Below, piece by piece: positions 21,898 through 50,464 of a stretch of 64,000 nucleotides of DNA. Source of the DNA: Lachnospiraceae bacterium. Lineage in GTDB: Bacteria; Bacillota; Clostridia; Lachnospirales; Lachnospiraceae. The DNA lies in NCBI GenBank assembly GCA_017521605.1, contig JAFXCD010000044.1, forward strand, positions 1-64,000. The letters are read 5' to 3'. A program made the position numbers and the translations under genes. The first letter of the stretch is position 1; every line of letters begins with the position of its first letter. The notes below the pieces were generated by a model that was not told the DNA's origin, ran no database searches, and saw only the letters and a program-made list of their open reading frames with translations.

Positions 21898-23187
21898 TTA
21901 TAAATTTCTTTCTAAATCTGCTTTCAGCCACACCGTAAATCTGGTCCCAATCTCCGGACTGGAAAGCACCTCTATTTTTCCATCATGGGCATCTACAATC
22001 CACTTGGCGATAGACAGTCCCAGTCCTGAACCTCCGGTATTACCATTACGTGCCTTATCCGAACGATAGAACGGCTCAAAAATATGCTTCACATCCTCAC
22101 CCTGCATACCGATACCCTCATCCTGCACTACATACCCTACACAATCGCCGTTTGTTTTCACACGAAACTGTATGGTAGACCCTTTAGCAGAATACTTGGC
22201 GGCATTTTGCACAAAAATACGCACAGACTGCTTTATCATCGCCACATCCCCGCACATCTTTACAGGCGGAAGAATCAGATTTCCTTCTTCATCTAAAGCG
22301 CTTCCCTTGTCGCTTACAAATTCATAAGGATGATCCCTATCAATCATTAAGGATTCTTCCCACACCTCATGGATCACCTGACACAAATCAAATTCCGAAT
22401 AATGAAGTGTATTTTTTCCATTTTCTCCCCGCGCCAAAAAGAGAAGCTGCTCCACCAGCTCCTTCATATGCTCCGACTCATGCTTCAATGCCTCGATGGA
22501 CTCCTCCAATATACTCTCATCCTCTTTGCCCCAGCGATCCAGCATGTTCACATAGCCCTGAATAACCGCAATGGGAGTACGAAGCTCATGGGAGGCATCT
22601 GACACAAACCGAGCCTGCTTTTTCTGGCTTTCCCGCATGCGGTAAATCAGATTGTTCAATGCCACCTCGATACTTGCCAAATCCTTATCTCCTGTAGAAA
22701 TTCTGGCATCCGGGGAATTAGGAGAAAGATTCTCTATAGCCTGCTCCAAGCTTTCAAACTTAGAAGTATCCAGCGGCAGGGAGCTAAGTCTCTCTGCTTT
22801 GATTGCCAAATCATTTAAAGGCTTAAGCTTGCGACGGATTTCCCCTGTACCAAACAACCCACCGATAATATCTAATCCCTGCAGGACAAGAAGAACACCA
22901 AGCGGCAATATCACATAATCAATAAATTGATACACCGGATATCGATGAAAGTCCCCATGGGAGTCCTCAATAATCAGCACAAAATCCTTATAGCTTTCCC
23001 CACTCTCAATCTCTACCTTCTCCACTTCTCTGGTGTCAGGAATCTGATCTATCCTCCACTTGAAAAAGGCGCCTGCAATCAGCGCCACAATTATAATATC
23101 CAGACAAATCGTTCCCCAAAACTGCTTAAACCAGAAGCTCATATGAATCCTTCTGGCAATAGATGTCATTTTACTGTTTGCGTTCAT
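21898..23187 (-). CDS. HisKA/HATPase sensor histidine kinase
   Basis: Membrane sensor kinase of 429 residues. Two transmembrane helices (about 27-43 and 88-112) bound a short extracellular loop; a HAMP-like linker leads to H200 in SDASHELRTP, then an N-box FVQNAAKYS and G-boxes DEGIGMQ and GGSGLGLSIAK. I choose the ATG at 23187 since GGGGAG lies just upstream; the longer TTG reading enters the repeat element at 23203-23263. It pairs with the OmpR-type regulator directly upstream. The signal sensed is unknown. Confidence 0.93.
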   Translation of the reverse strand: MNANSKMTSIARRIHMSFWFKQFWGTICLDIIIVALIAGAFFKWRIDQIPDTREVEKVEIESGESYKDFVLIIEDSHGDFHRYPVYQFIDYVILPLGVLLVLQGLDIIGGLFGTGEIRRKLKPLNDLAIKAERLSSLPLDTSKFESLEQAIENLSPNSPDARISTGDKDLASIEVALNNLIYRMRESQKKQARFVSDASHELRTPIAVIQGYVNMLDRWGKEDESILEESIEALKHESEHMKELVEQLLFLARGENGKNTLHYSEFDLCQVIHEVWEESLMIDRDHPYEFVSDKGSALDEEGNLILPPVKMCGDVAMIKQSVRIFVQNAAKYSAKGSTIQFRVKTNGDCVGYVVQDEGIGMQGEDVKHIFEPFYRSDKARNGNTGGSGLGLSIAKWIVDAHDGKIEVLSSPEIGTRFTVWLKADLERNL

Positions 23188-23202
23188 ACTACTCCCCTTG
23201 CA

Positions 23203-23263
23203 TATCACAAGCAACGCTTGTGATACTGCTAAAACAGAAAGTGAAAAATCTTTGATTTTTCAC
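23203..23263 (-). repeat. Double-hairpin leader element, copy 1 (before the histidine kinase gene)
   Basis: Read on the minus strand: hairpin A GTGAAAAATC-AAA-GATTTTTCAC (forward 23241-23263), a 15-nt spacer, then hairpin B TATCACAAGC-GTT-GCTTGTGATA (forward 23203-23225); both stems are perfect 10-bp. Fifteen nt follow to the kinase ATG, including its ribosome site. It fills the gap between the regulator stop and the kinase start. Two further copies lie at 46264-46324 and 50386-50446. Confidence 0.9.
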
Positions 23264-23264
23264 A

Positions 23265-23945
23265 CTACTCCTTCACAACATAGCCCACGCCACGTACTGT
23301 ATGTATCAGCTTAATACCATAACGGTCATCAATTTTGGTCCGCAGATATCTTATATATACATCGATAATATTGGTCTCTCCCATATAATCATAGCCGCAG
23401 ACCTCGTTCATCAACTTCTCCCTGTCCAGCACGATATTCTTATTCCTCATCAGCATACGAAGAAGCTCAAACTCCCTGTTGGTCAGCTCTACCACCTCTC
23501 CATTTACCGTCACCTCATAGCGTTCCTCATCCAATGTCACACCCTTAATGGACAAATTATGGGTAGCTGTCACCGTCACCGGTCCTCGTTTCTTTAAAGC
23601 TACTCTAATTCTGGCAAGCAGTTCCTCAATGGCAAATGGCTTGGTGATATAATCATCCGCCCCCGCATCCAGTCCTGACACCTTATCCATCACCGCATCC
23701 CGGGCAGTCAGCATAATCACCGGGGTATCCTTCTCCATGCGAAGCCTGCGCAATACCTCAAGACCATTTAATCCCGGAAGCATCACATCTAAAAGTATCA
23801 GGTCAAAGCATCCGGAGAGGGCCTTTTCCAGACCCTCTCTGCCATCAAATGCCTTCTCCACTTCATTCCCCTCATGCTTTAGCTCCAATTCCACAAAACG
23901 TGCAATTTTTTCTTCATCCTCGATGATTAAAATTCGATTTGCCAT
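23265..23945 (-). CDS. OmpR/PhoB-family response regulator
   Basis: Response regulator of 226 residues. The receiver has Asp-Glu near the start (IEDEEKI), the phospho-acceptor D53 (LLDVMLPG), Thr in MLTAR and Lys in YITKPF; the C-terminal winged helix shows LTNREFELL and YIRYLRTKID, typical of OmpR/PhoB DNA binding. It is the first gene of the two-component pair, with the kinase gene 77 bp downstream across the repeat element. Targets are not evident from the sequence. Confidence 0.95.
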   Translation of the reverse strand: MANRILIIEDEEKIARFVELELKHEGNEVEKAFDGREGLEKALSGCFDLILLDVMLPGLNGLEVLRRLRMEKDTPVIMLTARDAVMDKVSGLDAGADDYITKPFAIEELLARIRVALKKRGPVTVTATHNLSIKGVTLDEERYEVTVNGEVVELTNREFELLRMLMRNKNIVLDREKLMNEVCGYDYMGETNIIDVYIRYLRTKIDDRYGIKLIHTVRGVGYVVKE

Positions 23946-46214: not shown

Positions 46215-46263
46215 TTAAAAGTCCGTCAGGACACAGACCATTGATTGCAAAATGAGGTAACAT

Positions 46264-46324
46264 GTGAAAAATCCTTGTTTTTTCACTTTCTGTTTAAACA
46301 ATATCACAAGCAGCACTTGTGATA
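46264..46324 (+). repeat. Double-hairpin leader element, copy 3 (before the MBOAT gene)
   Basis: Plus-strand copy of the 61-bp element. Hairpin A (46264-46286) has an 8-bp stem GTGAAAAA/TTTTTCAC, the spacer is again 15 nt, and hairpin B (46302-46324) has a 9-bp stem TATCACAAG/CTTGTGATA with a CAGCA loop. The gap to the MBOAT ATG is 14 nt and carries GAGGTG. The stems are kept although the loops differ from the other copies. Confidence 0.85.
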
Positions 46325-46338
46325 TGCTGAGGTGTAAA

Positions 46339-47745
46339 ATGTTATTTTCCAGTATCCCCTTTTTATACTATTTTTTGCCTGCGGTACTGCTCCTTTATTT
46401 TGTAGTGCCAAATAAACTGAAAAACTTAGTATTACTGCTTTCCAGCCTGTTTTTCTACGGTTGGGGAGAGCCAAGATATGTAATCATTATGAGCATTGCC
46501 ATTGTGGCAGGATATGTATTTGGACGCCTTATAGAGGCCTTTCGTGGGAAAGGCCTTTCTAAGGTGTTTTTTATTCTGTCTCTGATTAGTGGTGTTGCAA
46601 TGCTGGGCTATTTTAAATATGTGGACTTCTTTATTACCAATCTGAATGTGGTGACAGGGCTGTCCATCCCTCTACTGAAAATCGCCTTGCCCATCGGAAT
46701 CAGCTTTTATACCTTCCAACTACTCAGTTATCTGGTAGATGTATATCGCGGCACTGTACCGGTCCAAAAAAATATTATTAATTTTGGAACCTATATCGCC
46801 ATGTTTCCCCAACTGATAGCAGGACCTATTGTACGCTACAGAGATATTGCCGCTCAGTTAGAACAGCGTACCCATTCCTTTGAAAAATGTGCTTATGGCA
46901 TCCGCCGCTTTATGATTGGTCTTTCAAAAAAGATATTATTGGCCAATCTTTTAGGTGAGCTTTGTGATATTTTCAGAGCCTCCCCGGACAAATCCGTGTT
47001 GTTCTTCTGGCTCTATGCCATCAGCTTTACCTTGCATATATACTTTGACTTCTCCGGCTATAGCGATATGGCTATCGGTCTGGGTAAAATCTTTGGATTT
47101 GACTTTATTGAAAACTTTAACTACCCCTATATTTCCAAGAGCATCACAGAATTCTGGCGGCGCTGGCATATGTCCTTGGGTTCCTGGTTCAGGGACTATG
47201 TGTATATCCCTCTGGGCGGAAACCGGGTGTCCAAGCCCCGCTGGTTTATTAATATCCTGGTGGTGTGGATGCTTACCGGTTTCTGGCATGGAGCTTCCTG
47301 GAACTTTATTCTCTGGGGTTTACTGTATGCAGCATTTTTAGTGATAGAGAAGCTGTTTCTGGGAAAATTCCTGGACAAGCCTTCTTTCTGGCGCCATATT
47401 TATGTAATGCTGATTGTTATGTTTGGCTTTGTACTGTTTAATGCTACGGATATCCGTGAGGCAGGAAGCTACCTGAGTGCCATGTTTAGTGCAGGCAATT
47501 ATCCCTTGGTTTCCGGGGAATTTGTGTATTATTTTAAAAGCTTTTGCTTTATCTTAGCTTTTTCCGTCTTAGGCAGTACGCCTTTACCCAAGCTGGCTGT
47601 AACAAAGCTTAAGGCTTCCAAAAAGCCTCTGGTTTCCGGCTTGATGGGCGTGGCAGAATTGTTATTCCCATTGATACTGCTGTTGCTGGTAACCGCTTAT
47701 CTGGTGGATGGTTCTTTCAATCCATTTTTATACTTTAGATTCTAG
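46339..47745 (+). CDS. MBOAT O-acetyltransferase (DltB/AlgI family)
   Basis: Polytopic membrane protein of 468 residues, MBOAT family. The invariant His region GFWHGASWNF and WRRWHMSLGSWFRDYVYIP, with PIGISFYTFQLLSY, match AlgI/DltB. The enzyme would take an acyl group across the membrane for attachment to an exported glycan. GAGGTG precedes the ATG at 46339; the longer reading from 46264 starts inside the repeat element and is rejected. It is followed 12 bp later by a DHHW gene, the usual partner. Confidence 0.93.
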   Translation: MLFSSIPFLYYFLPAVLLLYFVVPNKLKNLVLLLSSLFFYGWGEPRYVIIMSIAIVAGYVFGRLIEAFRGKGLSKVFFILSLISGVAMLGYFKYVDFFITNLNVVTGLSIPLLKIALPIGISFYTFQLLSYLVDVYRGTVPVQKNIINFGTYIAMFPQLIAGPIVRYRDIAAQLEQRTHSFEKCAYGIRRFMIGLSKKILLANLLGELCDIFRASPDKSVLFFWLYAISFTLHIYFDFSGYSDMAIGLGKIFGFDFIENFNYPYISKSITEFWRRWHMSLGSWFRDYVYIPLGGNRVSKPRWFINILVVWMLTGFWHGASWNFILWGLLYAAFLVIEKLFLGKFLDKPSFWRHIYVMLIVMFGFVLFNATDIREAGSYLSAMFSAGNYPLVSGEFVYYFKSFCFILAFSVLGSTPLPKLAVTKLKASKKPLVSGLMGVAELLFPLILLLLVTAYLVDGSFNPFLYFRF

Positions 47746-49185: not shown

Positions 49186-50370
49186 CTACTTCTTCATCCT
49201 CTTCAAATACTGCTCGTACTCCACGGACATGTTGCGCAATCTCTCCAGATTCTCCTTCAGAGCCTCTACTGTCAAATCCACTTCCTCCTTAGTGGTATAC
49301 TCCGAAAGGGTTAAACGTACCACACCCTTTGCCACCTCCGGGGGCACACCAATGGCCATAAGCACATGAGAAGGGTCTACTGCACCGGTTGTACATGCAG
49401 AACCACCAGAGCCACAGATACCCCTTTGGTCCAGAAGAATCAATAAGCTTTCGCCCTCGATAAAAGAAAAACAGAAGCTGGCATTACCCGGCAAACGTTT
49501 CTCTCTGCTGCCATTCAGTCTGACGTGAGGTATTTCCGTCAGTACACGGTCAATCAAATACTCCCTGAGCAATGTTACCTTATCCATCTTTTCTGCCATA
49601 TTCTCCCCAACCATCTCTGCAGCCTTACCGAATCCTACGATAGCCGGTACATTATGGGTTCCTGCTCGTCGGTGTCTCTCCTGTGCACCACCGTGGAGAA
49701 AAGAAGACAGCTTCACATTCTTACGGATATACAGTGCACCTATGCCCTTGGGTCCATGAAGCTTGTGCGCACTGATACTGAGCAAATCAATCTCCATTTC
49801 CTCTACATCCATAGGAATATGACCAACAGCCTGTACCCCATCCACATGGAACAAAATCCCCTTCTCATGGGCAATCCTACTAATTTCTGCTATAGGTTGA
49901 ATCGTACCAATTTCATTGTTGGCAGCCATCACAGAAATCAATATGGTATCCTGACGGATAGACTCTCTAATCTTCTCCGGGCTTACAAAACCTTCCGCAT
50001 CCACATCCACATAGGTCACCCGAAAGCCTCTTTTTTCCAGATATTCGCAGCTATGGAGCACTGCATGGTGCTCTATTTTTGTGGTGATAATATGCTTTCC
50101 CTTGTGGGCAAAGCTTTCAGCCACTGCCTTGATCGCCCAGTTGTCAGACTCACTTCCTCCACCGGTAAAATAAATCTCCTCTCTTCGGGCGTTGATAAGC
50201 CTGGCCACCTGATCCCTGGCTTTTGCCACACCCTTGGCAGACTGTCCTGCCAGAGAATAAATAGCCGCAGGATTGCCATAATTTTCTTGCAAATAGGGCA
50301 ACATCTCCTCCAACACCTCCAGATGAATTTTGGTAGTCGCCGCATTGTCTAAATAAATGATTCTTTTCAT
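49186..50370 (-). CDS. Cysteine desulfurase, NifS/IscS family
   Basis: Pyridoxal-phosphate enzyme of 394 residues that takes sulfur from cysteine. YLDNAATTK at the start, K203 in SISAHKLHGPKG (cofactor Lys) and the catalytic C326 in SGGSACTTG are conserved. The ATG at 50370 has GGGGAT upstream; a TTG nine codons earlier starts in the repeat element. No scaffold protein or thiI gene is adjacent, so whether it serves iron-sulfur clusters or tRNA thiolation is open. Confidence 0.94.
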   Translation of the reverse strand: MKRIIYLDNAATTKIHLEVLEEMLPYLQENYGNPAAIYSLAGQSAKGVAKARDQVARLINARREEIYFTGGGSESDNWAIKAVAESFAHKGKHIITTKIEHHAVLHSCEYLEKRGFRVTYVDVDAEGFVSPEKIRESIRQDTILISVMAANNEIGTIQPIAEISRIAHEKGILFHVDGVQAVGHIPMDVEEMEIDLLSISAHKLHGPKGIGALYIRKNVKLSSFLHGGAQERHRRAGTHNVPAIVGFGKAAEMVGENMAEKMDKVTLLREYLIDRVLTEIPHVRLNGSREKRLPGNASFCFSFIEGESLLILLDQRGICGSGGSACTTGAVDPSHVLMAIGVPPEVAKGVVRLTLSEYTTKEEVDLTVEALKENLERLRNMSVEYEQYLKRMKK

Positions 50371-50385
50371 ACTAATCCCCATACA

Positions 50386-50446
50386 TAACACAAGCAACGC
50401 TTGTGTTACTGCTCAAATGAAAAGTGAAAAATCTTTGATTTTTCAC
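50386..50446 (-). repeat. Double-hairpin leader element, copy 2 (before the cysteine desulfurase gene)
   Basis: On the minus strand: hairpin A (forward 50424-50446) is identical to copy 1; the spacer is 15 nt; hairpin B (forward 50386-50408) is TAACACAAGC-GTT-GCTTGTGTTA. Relative to copy 1 the third base pair of hairpin B changes from T-A to A-T on both sides, so pairing is kept. Fifteen nt follow to the ATG. Confidence 0.9.
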
Positions 50447-50464
50447 ACTAATCTAGTCTCTCTT

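Follow-up and report, generated by a model that had tools for sequence, protein, structure and literature searches.

A probable family of small non-coding mobile elements at translation starts in Lachnospiraceae

Y1 transposases move REP sequences and relatives of IS200/IS605, and an imperfect hairpin with an unpaired base is typical of REP/RAYT elements and of the IS200/IS605-derived elements called PATEs. Integron gene cassettes are inserted in one orientation and can be stacked beside a fixed attachment site, with folded hairpins as substrates. To our knowledge, no mobile element has its landing site in the gap between the ribosome-binding (SD) sequence and the start codon. The REP/REPIN and RAYT (TnpA-REP) system resembles the element described here in being a small, non-coding, palindromic, multicopy sequence, genome-specific on a common layout and possibly mobilised in trans (PMC3116915, PMC3733652, PMC2817692 and PMC8266576, in part; the rest is general background). 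The present element differs from it in being a fixed two-hairpin unit of about 76 bp that includes an SD, in lying in sense before start codons, and in the absence of a Y1 transposase from the five carrier genomes searched. PATEs share with it hairpins near both ends, the absence of terminal inverted repeats and oriented insertion (PMC7290912 and PMC6006769, in part; the target rules are general background), whereas here no Y1 transposase was found and the target would be the SD-start gap. The nearest published parallel found is that of the TAACTGA heptamer repeats of marine Beggiatoaceae, which cluster just upstream of the start codons of functionally unrelated genes, in a system where canonical ribosome-binding sites are rare according to a section heading of the same paper (PMC4679880, in part). 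These are direct repeats of a heptamer, a different kind of sequence, whereas the present element carries a ribosome-binding site; TAACTGA occurs in 0 of 120 copies on either strand. The likeness to integron cassettes is an analogy of working only; there is no cassette ORF here, and the attachment site would be the SD. The element was not found described in the open-access literature searched.

In the window (the whole stretch of 64,000 nt that was analysed), a first-pass annotation had placed a 61-bp double-hairpin element immediately before three start codons, at 23203-23263, 46264-46324 and 50386-50446, and reading the sequence confirms all three copies (Table 1). In each, hairpins A and B, both of 23 nt, are separated by a linker of 15 nt, and all three copies lie the same way round relative to the downstream gene, as had been claimed. 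The gap between hairpin B and the ATG, given as 14 or 15 nt with the ribosome site inside it, is indeed 15, 14 and 15 nt in copies 1, 2 and 3 and contains an SD segment in each; the downstream genes likewise encode a histidine kinase, an MBOAT protein and a class-V aminotransferase-fold protein resembling cysteine desulfurase. The identity of about 55 of 61 positions reported for copies 1 and 2 belongs to copies 1 and 3, the correct figure being 50 for copies 1 and 2, and 45 for copies 2 and 3. Although the three 61-bp copies are real, the repeated unit is larger, about 76 bp, and continues beyond hairpin B: some 15 nt past it (TGCAnGGGGnnTAnT, SD included) recur in most copies and are followed by ATG. 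The unit thus runs from hairpin A through a T-rich linker and hairpin B to an SD segment ending beside the start codon, and comparison with relatives puts its left edge where hairpin A begins, give or take a few bases.

Table 1. Features of the three window copies and their surroundings
Feature	Position	Strand	Basis
Copy 1 hairpin A, 10-bp stem, 3-nt loop	23241..23263	-	sequence and fold
Copy 1 T-rich linker, GCAG at end	23226..23240	-	sequence
Copy 1 hairpin B, 10-bp stem, 3-nt loop	23203..23225	-	sequence and fold
Copy 1 SD segment TGCAAGGGGAGTAGT, immediately 5' of ATG	23188..23202	-	sequence
Native SD of histidine kinase gene (AAGGAGTAGT), stranded upstream of copy 1; adjoins start codon in relatives	23264..23273	-	relatives
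Histidine kinase gene 3' of copy 1	21898..23187	-	
Copy 2 hairpin A, single mismatch near loop	46264..46286	+	sequence and fold
Copy 2 T-rich linker	46287..46301	+	sequence
Copy 2 hairpin B, innermost pair broken	46302..46324	+	sequence and fold
Copy 2 SD segment TGCTGAGGTGTAAA	46325..46338	+	sequence
Native SD region GAGGTAACAT stranded upstream of copy 2	46254..46263	+	relatives
MBOAT gene 3' of copy 2	46339..47745	+	
Copy 3 hairpin A	50424..50446	-	sequence and fold
Copy 3 T-rich linker	50409..50423	-	sequence
Copy 3 hairpin B, compensatory T-A to A-T change relative to copy 1	50386..50408	-	sequence
Copy 3 SD segment TGTATGGGGATTAGT	50371..50385	-	sequence
Native leader remnant upstream of copy 3; alignment to relatives gapped, SD remnant not clear	50447..50456	-	relatives
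Class-V aminotransferase-fold (cysteine-desulfurase-like) gene 3' of copy 3	49186..50370	-	

On the gene strand, hairpin A and the T-rich linker score as terminator-like in copies 1 and 3 (hairpins at 23241-23263 and 50424-50446), and copy 2 gives no such score. A role of the element in supplying a promoter was rejected, as none of the three window copies contains a sigma-70-like site. Rfam gave 0 matches in the window, in agreement with the earlier remark that no named RNA family came to mind, and a search in evalue mode of seven loci with various copies returned nothing above the cut-offs and one sub-threshold microRNA match (E 0.62).

A covariance model restricted to the 61 nt, without SD or ATG, identified 38 copies at E<=0.01 in the genome to which the window belongs, a 3.8-Mb draft (G000). 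In 29 of these 38, an ORF of 50 codons or more begins (28 with ATG, 1 with GTG) 14-15 nt past hairpin B. None of the 38 has a start codon at that distance in the opposite direction, beyond hairpin A on the other strand, and positions drawn at random from both strands of these loci give a background of 2.8% (456 of 16,400). Shadows of these hairpins on the reverse strand, together with two matches taken as chance (L061, L064), were dropped from the match list; three weak copies with a visible ATG (L060, L062, L063) were kept by eye and bring the count to 32 of 41, the unbiased count being 29 of 38. Among the nine others, L041 does have an ATG 15 nt away, though its reading frame is short, six (L032, L035, L044, L013, L053, L058) have a start 24-37 nt away, and two non-genic copies (L038, L046) have no start codon nearby.

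The stems covary. In an alignment of 40 of 55 copies from five genomes, from which the 15 that were degenerate or of odd length were excluded, 95.0% of stem cells pair, and two-sided changes occur at 12 of 20 pairs. The 69 cells with such changes compare with 23.1 in shuffles and no more than 18 in slid versions. Across 81 matches from other genomes, in an alignment fitted to the model, they occur at 15 of 20 pairs (234 cells against 75.3). This covariation shows that the structure of the element is under constraint and, together with the 38 copies at E<=0.01, that the family is not due to chance. The first-pass annotation had held that random orientation or distance, or a lack of covariation, would reduce the element to an ordinary palindromic repeat; a sense orientation at fixed distance in 29 of 38 copies, none in antisense, and strong covariation were found instead. 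Hairpin sequences are genome-specific on a shared layout, for example GTGAAAAATC...GATTTTTCAC versus TTGAAAAATC...GATTTTTCAA. The triplets GCA and TGC are nearly invariant among the 40 copies, and through them hairpin B extends, with one unpaired purine, in copies 1 and 3 but not in copy 2. In several copies of genome G040 (L267-L270, L272, L276), the apex of hairpin B contains a further hairpin, GTAGTTGGCAAAGCCAACTAC, which recurs across that genome.

The earlier suggestion of an insertion element that supplies a ribosome site draws good support from comparison with relatives, in which the empty site was read base by base at 8 of the 11 loci queried (one to four relatives each), the native SD lying upstream of the copy and the element SD beside the ATG. 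At the locus of copy 1, three relatives whose histidine kinases are 83-89% identical read AAGGAGTAAT-ATG, AAGGAGTAGT-ATG and AAGGAGTAATT-GTG, and G000 has AAGGAGTAGT followed by the element, whose AAGGGGAGTAGT precedes the ATG. At the locus of copy 2, relatives G078 and G082 read GAGGTAAC with an ATG within 5 nt. Ten further loci were queried with joined flanks, and base-level empty sites were obtained at seven: L024 (window copy 3), L027 (window copy 2), L030, L034, L043, L045 and L047. An eighth locus, L028, spans the junction by coordinates rather than by base-level reading, and the query for L025 returned nothing. A stranded native SD can be recognised clearly at five of the loci (L023, L027, L030, L043 and L047) and with less clarity at the other three (L024, L034 and L045). 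The empty sites show that the copies at these eight loci were inserted, in sense orientation, between SD and start codon, leaving the native SD upstream and placing the element SD at working distance.

Most copies are, to judge from such comparisons, lineage-specific insertions. Of 25 copies from other genomes that were tested, only two coincide with a G000 site, both of them G078 copies, and none of 16 G040 copies tested does so. The copy before dxr (L033) was found in its own locus only, among 30 loci fetched, two of which match elsewhere in the locus. At the site of copy L026, G078 has between the flanking genes a gene (L263, about 1060-1530) that is presumably acetyltransferase-like. Two old copies are common to G000 and G078 by descent (L058=L280, L055=L282): hairpin A is degenerate in both genomes at L055/L282 and lost in G000 only at L058, and hairpin B and the SD are kept in each case. 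At L055 and L282, the frame of the upstream gene appears to enter the element and stop in the linker, so that the element may supply the C-terminus of the protein.

The element SD appears to have taken over translation of the downstream gene. Over 30 copies its predicted pairing with the anti-SD averages -9.1 kcal/mol, whereas stranded native SDs average -6.7 and random 16-mers -3.9, and the difference between left (native) and right (element) SDs in pairing with the 16S tail is significant (Wilcoxon p = 8e-5, 30 copies). At eight loci compared, pairing of the element SD falls within the range of the native SDs of relatives. A weaker SD as a cost of insertion was rejected, since it is not seen on average at the eight loci; at L024 the element SD does pair more weakly than the native SDs of its three relatives. 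The host may tolerate the element because the element SD took over translation.

Taken together, these features probably define a family of non-coding, non-autonomous mobile elements of about 76 bp targeted to translation starts. If confirmed, this would show a parasite settling in the handful of bases where a gene is most vulnerable, by bringing a substitute for the signal that it pushes aside, and an element that rewrites the translation-initiation regions of genes such as dxr, dnaB, ruvX and that of an SRP-type GTPase. The occupied and empty loci also provide natural before/after pairs for the effect of upstream hairpins on initiation.

The first-pass annotation had also proposed a cis-acting translational or attenuation leader, that is, a regulatory RNA of a regulon whose hairpins would respond to a signal or to a bound protein and control access to the neighbouring SD. 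Some observations agree with such a leader, namely the strong covariation of the stems, the fixed spacing to SD and ATG, the terminator-like hairpin A and T-rich tract of copies 1 and 3 on the gene strand, and the two old loci of G000 at which hairpin B and SD have outlasted hairpin A. However, copy 2 is not terminator-like, the element is absent before the same genes in close relatives, units are stacked in tandem, and hairpin sequences are genome-specific on a common layout. Eleven downstream genes examined have no evident common function, and the genes that follow copies include those for HD-domain, QueH, tRNA-synthetase-editing-like, RuvX, DnaB and SRP-GTPase proteins as well as dxr. A shared regulatory leader would not explain this mostly lineage-specific presence before unrelated genes, and the leader proposal, which thus retains the covarying stems and the persistence of hairpin B with its SD in its favour, is unlikely to be correct.

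The many similar copies within single genomes, the lack of a consistent ORF and the few non-genic copies (L038, L046) are what would be expected of an ordinary miniature repeat of the REP/MITE type, inserted at random and retained only where the SD it brings keeps the gene functional. If insertion were random, however, the copies easiest for the host to tolerate should be those that fall 5' of the native SD or in the space between convergent genes; in fact, 29 of 38 stand immediately in front of a start codon. Nor are terminal inverted repeats present: over 33 copies, the best 12-nt match of the left end to the reverse complement of the right end has a mean of 5.8 and a maximum of 7, against 6.0 in shuffled sequences. 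The chance that random insertion accounts for the family is slim. It is scarcely credible that the element is a mini-ORF, in which the first codon of hairpin A (GTG/TTG/ATG) would use the native SD to produce a short peptide translationally coupled to the gene: the frame from that codon is open and ends at the ATG in many G000 copies, but among 112 copies only 28 stop near the start codon as this would require, while 17 are in-frame fusions, 27 terminate early, 33 cannot be fitted to the scheme and 7 have no first codon, and the proposal was rejected.

The left and right flanks of the copies have a short core around TA in common. When the sequence before the left junction is compared with that before the start codon in G000, positions -5 and -6 agree in 17 and 19 of 30 copies (8.6 and 9.1 expected), and among the other positions -10 alone is marginal (p 0.049). 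In other genomes the excess at these two positions is smaller (16 and 22 of 47 copies; p about 0.05 and 0.02), -4 and -10 also being marginal. The dinucleotide before TA is identical on the left and right in 24 of 52 scorable copies, against a null of 10.4 and a shuffle maximum of 19, in a test whose form was chosen after the -5/-6 result and from which 60 of 112 copies were dropped as having no nnTA on both sides. The agreement, which covers only two informative positions, fits either a small target duplication or a recombination core. With less certainty, the right end of the element, which resembles an SD and has the core nnTA, would be recombined with a chromosomal SD-spacer by an enzyme supplied in trans, and the chromosomal SD would thereby serve as the attachment site. 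Such recombination would account for where the copies lie, for their single orientation, for an SD on either side, for the common core and for the ability of units to stack. It is tentatively suggested, as a possibility short of an even chance, that this is a class of mobile element with the ribosome-binding site as attachment site, in which every insertion falls in the SD-start gap, gives the gene another SD and opens a target for the next unit; Lachnospiraceae genomes would then have layered stacks of units, moved by a recombinase, before ordinary genes. If confirmed, this would point to a site-specific enzyme.

Two candidate sources of mobility were rejected. A Y1 (HUH) transposase (PF01797) is absent from all five carrier genomes (0 of 5) and present in 5 of 14 control genomes. 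A longer autonomous copy was sought among six left and nine right unmatched half-copies in G040, and no gene lies between halves; when read, these 15 proved to be degenerate copies or copies with an extra nested hairpin.

The family is patchily distributed. At least 26 of 138 genomes of the genus, most of them fragmented drafts, match at E<=1e-4 with 1 to at least 34 copies each; the model used contains the SD and ATG positions and thus favours copies at starts, and the counts are lower bounds, the best 34 candidates per genome having been scored. Outside these 26 carriers, G093 has one locus with a weak match. In a class-wide sample in which the best 12 candidates per genome were scored, at least one of 391 genomes was positive, namely G000 itself. 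A pattern scan of named genomes yielded at least 118 stretches. Among the 80 matches listed, most titles are Lachnospiraceae or Parablautia, Anaerocolumna, Velocimicrobium and Lacrimispora, placed there by taxonomy, and others are unassigned bacteria or Clostridia; Rahnella and one Clostridium MAG among them look like chance matches. A start codon lies at the usual distance in 48 of 79 copies from other genomes of the genus and in 43 of 83 copies among the matches listed from the named-genome scan, two sets that overlap in part (three of 86, L138, L176 and L195, were set aside because their palindromes are poor). The fraction is thus lower outside G000, in part owing to stacks and contig ends.

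At several loci units are repeated in tandem with periods near 70-77 bp, and a single ATG can be preceded by a stack of different unit types. A few cases raise the suspicion that stacks have a polarity, with the newest unit nearest the ATG. At L127, L131, L140 (Parablautia muri) and L166 (Anaerocolumna), the main unit is separated from the start codon by a unit of a second type, which has another pair of hairpins and an SD of its own. Carriage on plasmids or phages was also rejected: copy 1 (76 bases) had no blastn match in the plasmid or phage collections, and a second pattern searched in the viral collection gave no match. One contig of that collection (IMGVR_UViG_3300012089_000107; L393 around 1397) carries a hairpin B and SD before an ATG.
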